Assembly (NCBI RefSeq): GCF_008124835.1
Contig: NZ_VNHW01000011.1
Span: forward strand, 1-64,000
DNA: 64,000 bases
Direction: 5' to 3'
Source: Blastococcus xanthinilyticus
GTDB taxonomy: Bacteria; Actinomycetota; Actinomycetes; Mycobacteriales; Geodermatophilaceae
The notes beneath the pieces are model-generated. The model was not told the origin of the DNA. It saw nothing but the letters and a program-made list of their open reading frames with translations, and made no database searches. Of the stretch, positions 40,080-44,612 are shown in pieces (positions within the stretch are counted from its first letter, which is position 1; each line of letters begins with the position of its first letter). Position numbers and translations under genes: made by a program.

Positions 40080-40136
40080 CGTCCTCCCCGTCGCCCCGAT
40101 CGAGTGTGCCATCCCACACGTCGACCGGACGGGGCT

Positions 40137-40163
40137 GCTACTGGCCGGTAACCGCCCTACACT
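40137..40163 (+). promoter_or_regulatory. ecm promoter with palindrome-like element shared with ccr
   Basis: GCTACTGGCCGGTAAC at 40137-40152 is an imperfect palindrome five bases before the -10 box TACACT (40158-40163) of the ethylmalonyl-CoA mutase gene. Twelve of its 16 bases match the palindrome GTTACCGGTGGGTAAC at the ccr promoter (55211-55226). Confidence 0.5.
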
Positions 40164-40171
40164 CCGCTGGC

Positions 40172-42226
40172 ATGCCGTTCCCGCACACGCCGGCGGAGCG
40201 CGACCGCCCCTGGGTCATGCGCACCTACGCCGGCCACTCCTCGCCGGCCGAGTCCAACGCCCTGTACCGCCGCAACCTGGCGAAGGGGCAGACCGGCCTC
40301 TCGGTCGCGTTCGACCTGCCGACGCAGACCGGCTACGACCCGGACGACCAGCTCGCCGTCGGCGAGGTCGGCAAGGTCGGCGTGCCCGTCACGCACATCG
40401 GGGACATGCGGGCGCTCTTCGACGGCATCCCGCTCGACGAGATGAACACGTCGATGACCATCAACGCGACGGCGATGTGGCTGCTCGCGCTCTACCAGGC
40501 CGTCGCCATCGAGCAGGCGGAGGAGGCGGGCGCCGACCCGGACGAGGTCGTGCGCCGGCTCGCCGGGACGACGCAGAACGACATCATCAAGGAGTACCTG
40601 TCGCGGGGGACCTACGTCTTCCCGCCGGCGCCCTCGATGCGGCTGATCACCGACATGGTCGCCTACTCGGTGACGACGATGCCCAAGTGGAACCCGATCA
40701 ACATCTGCAGCTACCACCTGCAGGAGGCCGGGGCCACGCCGGTGCAGGAGATCGCCTACGCGATGAGCACCGCGATCGCCGTCCTGGACTCGGTGCGGGA
40801 CTCGGGTCAGGTGCCGCAGGAGCGGTTCGGCGAGGTCGTCGCCCGCATGTCCTTCTTCGTCAACGCGGGCGTGCGATTCGTCGAGGAGATGTGCAAGATG
40901 CGCGCCTTCACCCAGCTCTGGGACGAGCTGACCGAAGAGCGCTACGGCGTCACGGACGCCAAGCACCGCCGGTTCCGCTACGGCGTGCAGGTCAACTCCC
41001 TCGGCCTCACCGAGGCGCAGCCGGAGAACAACGTCCAGCGGATCGTGCTGGAGATGCTCGCGGTGACCCTCTCCAAGGACGCCCGCGCCCGCGCCGTGCA
41101 GCTGCCGGCCTGGAACGAGGCCCTCGGGCTGCCCCGCCCGTGGGACCAGCAGTGGTCGCTGCGGCTGCAGCAGGTGCTCGCCTACGAGACCGACCTGCTC
41201 GAGTACGAGGACCTGTTCACCGGGTCCGTGGTCGTCGAGAAGAAGGTCGCCGAGATCGTCGAGGGCGCGCGGGCCGAGATCGCCCGCGTGCAGCAGATGG
41301 GCGGGGCCGTGGCCGCCGTCGAGTCCGGCTACATGAAGGGCGAGCTGGTCGCCTCGCTGGCCGAGCGCCGGCGCCGGATGGAGAGCGGCGAGGACGTCGT
41401 GGTGGGCGTCAACCGGTTCGCCACCACCGAGCCCAACCCGCTGACCGCCGACCTGGACGCCGCGATCATGGTGGTGGACCCCGCCGTCGAGGCCGCCGCC
41501 CAGGAGGCGGTGCAGAAGTGGCGCGCCGAGCGGGAACCGGAGCCGGTCCGCGCCGCCCTGGCCGCGCTGCGCGAGGCGGCGTCCTCCGGCGTCAACCTCA
41601 TGCCGGCCACGCTCGACTGCGCCCGCGCCGGTGTGACGACGGGGGAGTGGGCCGGGGTGCTGCGCGAGGTGTTCGGCGAGTACCGGGCGCCCACCGGCGT
41701 CGCCGCGGCCACCGGCGGTGGAGAGGCCGATGAGACGCTCACGGCGGTCCGCGCGCGGGTGCGGTCCACCGGCGAGGAGATCGGTGGCCGGCTGCGGTTC
41801 CTGGTGGGCAAGCCCGGCCTGGACGGGCACTCCAATGGCGCCGAGCAGATCGCGGTGCGCGCCCGGGACGCGGGCTTCGAGGTCGTCTACCAGGGCATCC
41901 GGCTCACCCCCGAGCAGATCGTCTCCGCCGCGGTCGAGGAGGACGTGCACGTCGTGGGCCTGTCGGTGCTCTCCGGCTCGCACCTGCAGGTGGTGCCGGC
42001 CGTGCTCCGCGGGCTCCGGGCGGCCGGGCTGGACGACGTCCCGGTCGTCGTGGGTGGCATCATCCCCGACAGCGACGCCCGGCGGCTGCGCGAGCAGGGG
42101 GTGGCCCGCGTCTTCACCCCCAAGGACTTCGGGCTGAACGACATCATGGGCCAGGTCGTCGACGTGGTCCGCGACGCCCACGGCCTGCCCGGCACGGCCG
42201 AGCAGCCGGTGCCCGCCCCGGCCTGA
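40172..42226 (+). CDS. meaA: Ethylmalonyl-CoA mutase (MeaA/Ecm)
   Basis: A 684-residue adenosylcobalamin enzyme that isomerises (2R)-ethylmalonyl-CoA to methylsuccinyl-CoA. Catalytic barrel and B12 domain are in one chain, as in Ecm. The N terminus is short (PWVMRTYAGHS) like MeaA of methylotrophs. Tyr19 (MRTY) and Arg145 (KEYLSRGTY) match the carboxylate-binding Tyr/Arg of methylmalonyl- and ethylmalonyl-CoA mutases. The B12 domain has KPGLDGHSNG with the cobalt ligand His553 and Asp551. Close likeness to MeaA (GTTQNDIIKEYLSRGTYVFPPAPS) and the presence of ccr support Ecm over methylmalonyl-CoA mutase. A TACACT box lies eight bases before the ATG. Confidence 0.92.
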   Translation: MPFPHTPAERDRPWVMRTYAGHSSPAESNALYRRNLAKGQTGLSVAFDLPTQTGYDPDDQLAVGEVGKVGVPVTHIGDMRALFDGIPLDEMNTSMTINATAMWLLALYQAVAIEQAEEAGADPDEVVRRLAGTTQNDIIKEYLSRGTYVFPPAPSMRLITDMVAYSVTTMPKWNPINICSYHLQEAGATPVQEIAYAMSTAIAVLDSVRDSGQVPQERFGEVVARMSFFVNAGVRFVEEMCKMRAFTQLWDELTEERYGVTDAKHRRFRYGVQVNSLGLTEAQPENNVQRIVLEMLAVTLSKDARARAVQLPAWNEALGLPRPWDQQWSLRLQQVLAYETDLLEYEDLFTGSVVVEKKVAEIVEGARAEIARVQQMGGAVAAVESGYMKGELVASLAERRRRMESGEDVVVGVNRFATTEPNPLTADLDAAIMVVDPAVEAAAQEAVQKWRAEREPEPVRAALAALREAASSGVNLMPATLDCARAGVTTGEWAGVLREVFGEYRAPTGVAAATGGGEADETLTAVRARVRSTGEEIGGRLRFLVGKPGLDGHSNGAEQIAVRARDAGFEVVYQGIRLTPEQIVSAAVEEDVHVVGLSVLSGSHLQVVPAVLRGLRAAGLDDVPVVVGGIIPDSDARRLREQGVARVFTPKDFGLNDIMGQVVDVVRDAHGLPGTAEQPVPAPA

Positions 42227-42303
42227 GCCCGGGGCCGAGCGCGCCCGTCCCGCCGGGCCGGTACCGGTTGCCGGACCGGTCGCGGGCGTGGTGGGGTCGG
42301 CGC

Positions 42304-43077
42304 ATGAGCAGCGAGGGTGCGCCGCGGGTCGAGCGGGACGGGGACGTCGTCCGGATCACCATGACGCGGGCGGCCCGCCGCAACGCGCTGTCGCGGGAGC
42401 ACCTGGGCCAGCTGCTCGCCGCGGTGACCGAGGCGGGGGAGTCCGACGCGACCGGCATCGTGCTGGCCGCCGAGGGACCGGTGTTCAGCGCCGGGCACGA
42501 CTTCGCCGACGTGGCCGGCGCGGCCCTGCCGGAGGTGCGCAGCCTGCTGGCGCTGTGCACCGAGCTCATGCAGACGATCCAGGACGTGCCCCAGGTCGTG
42601 CTCGCGCGGGTGCACGCGCTCGCCACGGCGGCGGGCTGCCAGCTGGTCGCCTCCTGCGACCTGGCGGTGGCCGCCGAGTCGGCCGGCTTCGCCGCACCGG
42701 GGGGCAAGGGCGGCTGGTTCTGCCACACGCCCATGGTCGCCATCGCCCGCAACGTGGGGCGCAAGCGCGCGATGGAGCTGGCGCTCACCGGGGACGTCAT
42801 CGACGCCGCCACCGCCCTGGACTGGGGGCTGGTGAACCGCGTGGTACCCGACGCGGAGCTGGACAGCGCGGTCGCCGACCTCATCGGCCGGGCCACCCGC
42901 GGCTCGCGGGCCAGCAAGGCATGGGGCAAGCAGACCATGTACGCCCAGCTGGACCGGCCCGAGCGGGACGCGTACACGACGGCGATCGAGGTGATGGCCG
43001 CGGCCAGCCAGCTCCCTGGCGCGGTCGAGGGCATGTCGGCGTTCCTGGAGAAGCGCCGTCCGGTCTGGACCGACTAG
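42304..43077 (+). CDS. Crotonase-superfamily protein (ECHDC3-like), catalytic Glu residues missing
   Basis: A 257-residue enoyl-CoA hydratase-fold protein. CoA-binding GPVFSAGHDFADV and the oxyanion Gly in ATAAGCQLVASCDLAVA are seen, plus KRAMELALTGDVIDAATALDWGLVNRVV. The two Glu residues of true hydratases are replaced: Gln113 in GCQL, and Gly/Lys in the FAAPGGKGGWF loop (133-136). The same pattern is known in ECHDC3-like proteins, whose reaction is unclear, so simple crotonyl-CoA hydration is doubtful. It lies 77 bases after the mutase gene, in the same direction, and may be part of the same transcript. Confidence 0.8.
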   Translation: MSSEGAPRVERDGDVVRITMTRAARRNALSREHLGQLLAAVTEAGESDATGIVLAAEGPVFSAGHDFADVAGAALPEVRSLLALCTELMQTIQDVPQVVLARVHALATAAGCQLVASCDLAVAAESAGFAAPGGKGGWFCHTPMVAIARNVGRKRAMELALTGDVIDAATALDWGLVNRVVPDAELDSAVADLIGRATRGSRASKAWGKQTMYAQLDRPERDAYTTAIEVMAAASQLPGAVEGMSAFLEKRRPVWTD

Positions 43078-43141
43078 CCACGGACGGGTGAAAGCCGCCA
43101 CAACCGGGATGGTGGCGGGCGGCCCCGGCATTGATCCCGCC

Positions 43142-43228
43142 GTGCAGAACGTGTGGGACCTGACGCGCCGGCGGGCGCTGGACTTCGGGCGGGTGACGAC
43201 CGCCGCCTGTCCGGGGCGCGCGCACTGA
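43142..43228 (+). CDS. Cys-containing leader peptide (LTRRR...VTTAAC type)
   Basis: A 28-residue open frame from GTG 43142 (or 25 from GTG 43151), ending 37 bases before the symporter. It contains LTRRRALDFGRVTTAACPG, which fits the short actinobacterial leader-peptide pattern LTRRxxVDLxRVxTAxC found upstream of sulfur and cysteine genes, where ribosome stalling at the Cys codon reports cysteine supply. The single Cys codon is TGT at 43208-43210. There is no other gene-like feature in this 188-base gap. It suggests that the next gene is under cysteine control. Confidence 0.65.
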   Translation: MQNVWDLTRRRALDFGRVTTAACPGRAH

Positions 43229-43265
43229 CGTCCCCCGCCCGCACGCCCCCGAAAGGCACATCCCC

Positions 43266-44612
43266 GTGCTCGCTCGTCTCCGCCGCGTCCCGTTCGCGGC
43301 GCAGGTCCTCCTCGCGCTCGTCCTGGGCGTCGTCCTCGGTCTGGTCGCCCGCGACATGGGTCCGGTCGGCCCCGAGGACCCCAACTGGCTGACCAGCACC
43401 CTGCAGACCATCGGCGCCACGTTCGTCACCCTGCTGAAGGCGCTCGTCCCGCCGCTGATCGTCACCGCGGTGATCGTCAGCATCGCCAACCTCAAGCAGG
43501 TCTCCAACGCCGCCCGGCTGGCCGGCCAGACGCTGCTCTGGTTCGCCATCACCGCGCTGATCGCCGTCTCGATCGGCATCGGCCTCGGCCTGCTCACCGA
43601 CCCGGGCCGGAACAGCTCGGTCGACGCCGCCGCCGCCGAGTACGACGGCACGACCGGTGGCTGGTGGGACTTCCTCACCGGGCTCGTGCCCGGGAACATC
43701 CTCGGCCTCCAGGGCTCGGCCGAGGGCGCGCTGTCGTTCAACGTGCTGCAGCTGATCGTCATCTCGGTGGCGATCGGGGTCGCCGTCCTCAAGGTCGGCG
43801 AGGCCGCAGAGCCGTTCCTGGCCGTGGTGCGCTCCGCGCTCGCGATCGTGCAGAAGGTCCTCTGGTGGGTCATCCTGCTCGCGCCGCTGGGCACCGTCGG
43901 CCTGATCGGCAACGCGGTGGCCAGCTACGGCTGGGAGTCCCTCGGCTCCCTCGGTGCCTTCGCCGGGGCCGTGTACGCCGGGCTCGCGCTGGTGCTCTTC
44001 GTCGTCTACCCGGTGCTGCTGAAGCTCCACGGCCTCTCGCCGCTGCGCTGGTTCGCCGGCGCCTGGCCGGCCATCCAGCTCGCGTTCGTCTCCCGCTCCT
44101 CCATCGGCACGCTCCCGGTGACCGAGCGGGTGACCGAGCAGAGCCTCGGCGTCCCGCGGTCCTACGCGTCCTTCGCCGTCCCGTTCGGCGCCACGACCAA
44201 GATGGACGGCTGCGCGGCGATCTACCCGGCGCTGGCCGCGATCTTCGTGGCGGGCTTCTTCGACGTCGATCTCTCGATCACCGACTACCTGCTGATCGCG
44301 CTGGTCTCCGTCGTCGGGTCGGCGGCCACCGCGGGGGTCACCGGCGCGGTCGTCATGCTGACCCTCACCCTCTCGACCCTCGGGCTGCCGCTGGCCGGGG
44401 TGGGGCTCCTGCTGGCGGTCGACCCGATCCTCGACATGGGGCGCACCGCGGTGAACGTCGCGGGGCAGGCCCTGGTGCCGACGATCGTGGCCAAGCGCGA
44501 GGGCATCCTCGACCTCGACCGGTTCCGCGGCGTCTCCAGCGCCGAGCCGCTCGCCCCGGTGGAGGAGCGGAACGGCGTGGACGCCGACCTGCGGGCGACG
44601 CAGCCGGCGTAG
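43266..44612 (+). CDS. Dicarboxylate/amino acid:cation symporter (DAACS family), possibly for cystine
   Basis: A 448-residue transporter with eight helices and two hairpins. The first hairpin Ser motif is SRSSIGTLPVT and the helix-7 motif is GATTKMDGCAAIYPAL; the C-terminal helix ends in DPILDMGRTAVNVAGQA. The family covers glutamate, aspartate, C4-dicarboxylate and the cystine carrier TcyP. The GCAxIYPA segment resembles TcyP, and the leader peptide upstream has the cysteine-responsive pattern, so cystine is a reasonable but unproven substrate. GAAAGG lies about ten bases before GTG 43266. Confidence 0.85.
   Translation: MLARLRRVPFAAQVLLALVLGVVLGLVARDMGPVGPEDPNWLTSTLQTIGATFVTLLKALVPPLIVTAVIVSIANLKQVSNAARLAGQTLLWFAITALIAVSIGIGLGLLTDPGRNSSVDAAAAEYDGTTGGWWDFLTGLVPGNILGLQGSAEGALSFNVLQLIVISVAIGVAVLKVGEAAEPFLAVVRSALAIVQKVLWWVILLAPLGTVGLIGNAVASYGWESLGSLGAFAGAVYAGLALVLFVVYPVLLKLHGLSPLRWFAGAWPAIQLAFVSRSSIGTLPVTERVTEQSLGVPRSYASFAVPFGATTKMDGCAAIYPALAAIFVAGFFDVDLSITDYLLIALVSVVGSAATAGVTGAVVMLTLTLSTLGLPLAGVGLLLAVDPILDMGRTAVNVAGQALVPTIVAKREGILDLDRFRGVSSAEPLAPVEERNGVDADLRATQPA

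Follow-up and report, generated by a model that had tools for sequence, protein, structure and literature searches.

How the expression of an actinobacterial cation symporter could be tied to the supply of an amino acid, and what that symporter carries, is the question raised by a short reading frame in Blastococcus xanthinilyticus. The DNA analysed, hereafter the window, is the whole 64,000-nucleotide stretch (contig C11 of a 4.6-Mb genome). The frame lies on the + strand at 43142..43228, starts with GTG and runs for 28 codons plus a stop, with the peptide VQNVWDLTRRRALDFGRVTTAACPGRAH. A gap of 37 bases (43229-43265) separates its stop from the GTG at 43266 that opens a 448-residue cation symporter of the DAACS/SDF family (43266..44612, + strand), a candidate importer of cystine or a related sulfur amino acid. 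Both coordinates and translation agreed on re-reading with the original prediction, which had placed a 28-residue cysteine-type leader frame 37 bases ahead of a DAACS transporter.

Identity of the leader frame

Taken alone, the window's leader sequence is only suggestive of a cysteine-type leader. The peptide fits the core R-x-x-[VIL]-D-x-x-R followed by a cysteine six residues past the last arginine (LTRRRALDFGRVTTAAC); this is its one cysteine, and the contiguous run of Cys codons near the stop is absent. Against the NCBIfam models the frame scores 17.4 bits for NF042933 (cut-off 45) and 13.7 bits for NF042934, 'putative leader peptide' (cut-off 27), and being under both it is missed by a single-sequence test at these cut-offs. 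Pfam and PHROGs searches returned no match to the leader, and the one Rfam match in 42900-43400 was below threshold and taken as chance. Orthologous leaders before the same transporter do pass the NF042934 cut-off in at least four genomes (G174, G192, G208 and G245), at the very places of the leaders L180, L179, L183 and L184 of our own set.

The likeness to the leaders of NF042934 and NF042933 (Ms5788A group; M. smegmatis polycysteine leaderless short ORFs) extends over a common core L-T-x-R-x-x-V-D-L-x-R, a +6 cysteine encoded as UGU, a place before sulfur genes and a GTG or ATG start without a Shine-Dalgarno (SD) sequence. In contrast to these, the window leader has a single Cys codon and falls under the curated cut-offs, 36 of 157 relatives have no +6 cysteine, the downstream gene is a DAACS symporter, a probable hairpin lies over the key codon and SD masking is without a clear sign. 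The window leader is related to the actinobacterial cysteine leaders and has diverged from them, in line with the original prediction, which had noted leader peptides of this pattern as known upstream of sulfur and cysteine genes; it is of a known kind, and the fixed UGU, the stop replacement and the undiminished core constraint described below make it a variant. The uORFC-8-2 motif of Rhodobacterales cysS is described as likewise a Cys-codon uORF attenuator, but one with tandem Cys codons, mostly UGC, and an intrinsic terminator, in alpha-proteobacteria (PMC8632094).

Three further leaders of this kind occur in the window's genome, and the genes behind them, named by reading their translations, are a rhodanese-type sulfurtransferase, a TauE/SafE-type exporter and a ferredoxin-dependent sulfite/nitrite reductase. 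These siblings before sulfur genes in the same genome lend the cysteine link good support, in agreement with the mycobacterial cysteine leaders as described in PMC1262725 and PMC4633059. Leaders with cysteine runs are described before mycobacterial cys operons that have no terminators, with Rho suggested (PMC1262725), and in M. smegmatis such leaders give cysteine-dependent attenuation (Canestrari 2020, as cited in PMC9031893 and PMC13236596). The immediate neighbourhood of the symporter adds no recurring sulfur gene among ten neighbouring proteins from nine orthologue loci (biotin carboxylase, DUF885 twice, MCP, an EryCIII-like domain, a citrate/sulfate-type transporter, a penicillin-binding protein and three unmatched). 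In the window, the genes upstream of the leader read as methylmalonyl-CoA mutase-like (40106-42226) and as an enoyl-CoA hydratase that is below the best model's cut-off (42268-43077), with no evident sulfur link for either.

Conservation of the peptide core and of the +6 codon

The orthologue set began with 245 rows (25 from relatives, 80 named and 140 further), took in 92 of 106 additional class genomes that had a transporter match, and came to 220 after removal of duplicates. A profile scan of the upstream regions found a homologous leader before 157 of the 220, that is 142 of 165 in the genome set and 15 of 55 among the named extras. Leader and non-leader rows are separated by a wide gap in score, the lowest leader row standing at 15.6 and the next row at -6.8, and the reverse complement of the same regions, used as a null, reached -4.5 at best; the comparison across orthologues excludes a chance origin of the leader. 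In the window's own family the transporter is present at E 1e-150 or better in 70 of 112 genomes, and the leader precedes it in 70 of 70. Conservation upstream of orthologous transporters, which the original prediction had named as a check on itself, is therefore borne out.

The best named transporter orthologues belong to Blastococcus and other Geodermatophilaceae, and the leader is found also in Nocardiopsis, Jiangella, Kineococcus, Cellulosimicrobium and others. The scan did not find it at Rhizobiales orthologues such as those of Agrobacterium and Devosia, nor at several Micrococcales orthologues such as those of Arthrobacter and Cryobacterium. The Rhizobiales transporters without a detected leader (L077, L079, L083-L089, L091, L092, L095, L096, L098 and others) are orthologues of 65-72% identity, which suggests that the gene has moved between phyla and that the leader was lost or gained. 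One record, L120 from Streptomyces sp. NP160, may be misnamed; its transporter and leader cluster with those of Quadrisphaera (Kineosporiaceae).

The conserved core, defined on the alignment of the 157 leaders, comprises the codons for L-T-x-R-x-x-x-D-x-x-R (columns 0-10; 43160..43192, + strand), in which leucine is kept in 154, the two arginines in 154 and 153 and aspartate in all 157. The core is under purifying selection: dN/dS, computed from pooled pairwise counts without a tree and with shifted frames as the control, is about 0.23 in frame and 0.9 to 3.4 in the shifted frames (1.12 and 2.79 in the family set, n=71, made up of the 70 family leaders and L042). Codons 11-15, just after the core, have an in-frame dN/dS of about 1.1 in the family set.

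Six residues past the core arginine lies the putative pause codon, TGT in the window (43208..43210, + strand). At this place the 157 leaders have TGT in 119, TGC in 2, TGA in 30, TAG in 4 and TGG in 2, hence cysteine in 121, a stop in 34 and tryptophan in 2; the scan profile omits this column (column 16), yet its seed pattern demanded Cys, stop or Trp there. Where cysteine stands at +6, its codon is UGU in 119 of 121 leaders, as against 91 TGC and 23 TGT among the other Cys codons of these leaders counted from the core onward, and 180 TGC and 4 TGT among those of the transporters. Leader columns 0-15 have G or C at 89% of third codon positions. By place, the TGC:TGT ratio is 54:3 in column 9, 10:10 in column 11 and 19:6 in the tail after +6; the four Cys codons of column 13 are all TGT.

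The same preference holds for leaders that precede other genes. In a first batch TGT stands at +6 in 57 of 57 parsed rows (53 distinct places; 3 of 60 loci were unparsed and four places were found twice), their other Cys codons being TGC in 106 and TGT in 28; a second batch of 30 has 29 TGT and 1 TGC; and nine hand-fetched leaders, mostly short or weak matches, have 5 TGT, 2 TGA and 2 GGC. The total is TGT in 87 of 92 distinct places, and, as the profile behind these other-gene leaders contains the +6 cysteine, the Cys state is biased here and the choice between TGT and TGC is not. The two GGC cases, L366 and L367 (genomes G106 and G112), are exceptions to the +6 rule, with glycine at +6 and cysteine at +8; the translation of the gene behind them resembles an FAD/NAD(P)-binding protein. 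Cysteine leaders are described as acting via runs of Cys codons (PMC1262725; PMC9031893, PMC13236596), and no +6 UGU rule was found in the literature searched, a search outside which most subscription papers fell. The comparison of relatives suggests that the ribosome is held at one exact codon and not along a Cys run.

The replacements of this codon are restricted as well. Among the 157 importer leaders the +6 cysteine gives way to a stop or tryptophan only, never to Ser, Arg, Gly, Tyr or Phe. The window's family accounts for nearly all cases, with 33 stop, 2 Trp and 36 Cys among its 71 leaders, and the Kineococcus leader is the one stop-type case outside it. Mapped on a tree of the 157 transporters, the state at +6 (Cys, stop or Trp) requires 10 changes, or at least 5 if only the starred branches are trusted. 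Counted from the usual start, cysteine is entirely absent from 31 of the 34 stop-type leaders, and 3 keep one inside the core. The window leader itself retains its +6 Cys codon; a cysteine response is not to be assumed in every relative, since 34 of the 157 leaders have a stop there. A leader before a MetN-like ABC gene (named by reading) ends in RVASTL and a stop in G120 and G133 (L362, L363), and in the relatives G130 and G028 (L325, L326) it reads RLAGTLCR, with the +6 cysteine kept. Selenocysteine at the +6 UGA was considered and dropped because 4 of the 34 stops are TAG, and so was a genome-wide recoding of Cys to stop, as other leaders in the mostly stop-type genomes keep the +6 cysteine (30 of 30; L332-L361).

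Because the cysteine is often last or nearly so, with 0-2 residues after it in 86 of the 121 leaders, truncation by one codon would also be a simple neutral change, and the argument for a function at +6 is drawn from the unchanged core constraint and the lack of other replacements. The dN/dS of the core is 0.23 in the Cys-type set (36 leaders) and 0.24 in the stop-type set (33 leaders). This equality bears on a different reading of the leader, to which we give some tentative weight: that of nascent-chain arrest, in which the core itself slows the ribosome at +6 whether the A site holds a Cys or a stop codon, in the manner of TnaC at its UGA, and in which termination is the regulated step in the stop-type leaders. 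The 36 leaders without a +6 cysteine being 34 stop and 2 Trp, the repeated changes of state on the tree and the same Cys/stop switch at the MetN-like gene all speak in its favour. So does the spacing: when +6 occupies the A site, the Arg, Asp and Arg of the core fall at -12, -8 and -5 from the P-site residue. TnaC is described as having critical Trp12, Asp16 and Ile19 at -12, -8 and -5 from Pro24, the A site holding UGA and a rut site following downstream (PMC8429421). The stop-type leaders would likewise have a stop codon in the A site, and a rut-like stretch comes after the leader, but TnaC's critical Trp12, Asp16, Ile19 and Pro24 are not matched in the leaders beyond the Asp at -8; Arg takes the place of Trp12 and of Ile19, and no sequence homology is claimed. 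The match was noticed after the fact and Asp alone is identical, which makes it a lead, not a test. Against nascent-chain arrest also stand the neutral truncation that a stop near the end of the frame could represent, and the one other-gene group (2 loci) with Gly at +6 and Cys at +8. It is conceivable, if less probable than not, that the actinobacterial cysteine leaders are arrest peptides with one fixed pause site, a wobble-read UGU tuned to Cys-tRNA that can be swapped for a stop; the Cys-to-stop swap would then turn a starvation sensor into a termination-arrest sensor of TnaC geometry with the rest of the peptide unchanged.

The symporter and its predicted substrate

The transporter matches the Pfam SDF model PF00375 at 336.5 bits (E 2.8e-100). 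It is the one DAACS gene found in the window's genome, where an E. coli TcyP query returns this gene alone, and it shares 30% identity with E. coli TcyP and likewise 30% with GltP. A likeness of its GCAAIYPAL segment to the cystine carrier TcyP had been proposed, and it proves real: GCAxxYPA is common to E. coli TcyP and missing in E. coli GltP, DctA and SstT. The motif contains a one-residue insertion in TM7 that is shared with TcyP/YdjN; it is present in the window, in 12 subfamily members and in E. coli TcyP, and absent in five paralogues. The SRSS of HP1 is shared with TcyP/YdjN as well and is not specific, as TRSS occurs also in SstT and GltPh. The differences from TcyP/YdjN are an identity of only 30%, the absence of the NG before the insertion (KMDG in the window, GQNG in E. 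coli TcyP) and a subfamily distributed over Actinobacteria and Rhizobiales. KMDG in place of GQNG together with the low identity weakens a direct analogy with TcyP. In the tree the transporter's subfamily makes up one side of a branch (77/99), and TcyP is a long branch of unsure placement; judged by sequence, the transporter is of a separate subfamily. The original prediction of a cysteine-regulated transporter for cystine or a sulfur compound is thus supported, with refinements: from the TcyP-like segment and the cysteine leader, cystine or a related sulfur amino acid is our best guess at the substrate.

The family annotation would have the transporter carry dicarboxylates or acidic amino acids, and we regard this as rather unlikely. 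Its best NCBIfam matches are DctA (188 bits) and GltP (174 bits), but these scores are far under the respective cut-offs of 513 and 638. The best PDB matches are aspartate/glutamate transporters, and the MDG and the D-x-x-x-D-M-G-R-T segment of acidic-amino-acid carriers are kept; set against this are the TcyP-like GCAxxYPA insertion and the cysteine-type leader before 157 of the 220 orthologues.

RNA features and the proposed control

The region around the leader contains several elements through which its translation might act on the symporter gene. A GGGATG box (43106..43111, + strand), a candidate -35-like element whose first two G are kept at 75% and 92% in the family profile, lies 18 bases before an ATTGAT box (43130..43135, + strand), a candidate -10-like element 6 bases before the leader GTG. 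TTGA occurs at a distance of 5-15 nt upstream of the GTG in 35 of 64 family leaders and YTGA in 42 of 64. An SD-like motif precedes 4 of 64 family leader GTGs as against 62 of 71 transporter starts, where in the window it takes the form of GAAAGG (43251..43256, + strand). The spacing of the ATTGAT box would fit a leaderless transcript. A stretch of the form GGTGA..CACA..GGxATG (43086-43111) upstream of the leader looks similar in many relatives on visual inspection; ECF-type promoter readings, likewise judged only by eye, were set aside.

In the window's family a hairpin probably forms over the key codon (43188..43237, + strand), with codons 10-15 in core numbering as its left arm and the spacer as its right. 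Local folding from -20 to +30 around the key codon gives a family mean z of -1.44, and the two arms pair better within species than when permuted (mean -22.7 versus -21.4 kcal/mol), none of 200 permutations being as low. The Cys set likewise gave 0 of 200 and the stop set 6 of 200, in a permutation that leaves relatedness in. None of the other leader segment pairs tested paired better within species than permuted, folding of the whole leader region does not exceed that of its shuffles (mean z -0.04), and RNAalifold found no consensus structure around the key codon on the family alignment, which is ungapped and in which the arm spacing seems variable. Between leader stop and SD lies a C-rich, G-poor spacer (43229..43250, + strand), a candidate loading stretch for Rho. 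C exceeds twice G in 65 of 71 family spacers as against 4% of random length-matched windows of the transporter genes, and the same holds for all stop-type leaders in the complete set (34 of 34); beyond the family the excess is less marked, at C 0.47 and G 0.28 over the 80 nt past the key codon (78 leaders). The C-rich spacer fits Rho-dependent control of the kind proposed for the mycobacterial cys leaders (PMC1262725).

A further mechanism, which we judge unlikely here, is that the stalled ribosome keeps leader RNA off the transporter SD, the SD-masking translation attenuation that is reportedly at work in the M. smegmatis sibling system studied by Canestrari. That report, as cited in PMC9031893 and PMC13236596, speaks for it, as does a dip of the mean unpaired probability to 0.24-0.36 at 8-12 nt before the start. 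No species-specific pairing of the leader with the SD or start was seen, however, in three segments and three sets (z -1.2 to 0.4), and pairing of the SD with the early coding sequence is weaker than permuted (z 2.4 to 5.2). Quite improbable is a leader that, in the window's family, is merely a constitutive translational coupling or 5'-end element with decaying cysteine sensing: most family leaders have no polycysteine tract and the +6 cysteine has been lost to a stop in 33 of 71 and to Trp in 2, but purifying selection on the core persists in stop-type leaders (0.24) and the cysteine yields to stop or Trp and to no other one-step neighbour.

Our best reading takes the leader as a position-specific ribosome-pausing attenuator that acts at one fixed pause codon and is a variant of the cysteine leaders of mycobacteria. 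Its translation would probably begin right at the mRNA 5' end. Under a shortage of Cys-tRNA the ribosome would wait with the UGU at +6 (43208-43210) in its A site, and during the wait the nascent L-T-x-R-x-x-x-D-x-x-R would occupy the exit tunnel. The waiting ribosome would hold the straddling hairpin open and shield the C-rich spacer, and RNA polymerase would thereby continue into the symporter gene and allow its expression; with plentiful cysteine the ribosome would leave and the message be shut off, most likely via Rho acting on the C-rich spacer. The symporter would most likely import cystine or another sulfur amino acid. We consider it probable that a cis-acting attenuator leader of this kind ties the expression of the symporter to the supply of cysteine.

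With a core equally conserved whether a stop or cysteine stands at +6, the question arises whether the leader is an arrest peptide and not only a counter of codons. For the bacteria that have it, the prediction is that of a cysteine-controlled importer of the cystine type across many actinobacteria, one whose annotation would read as a carrier of dicarboxylates or glutamate.
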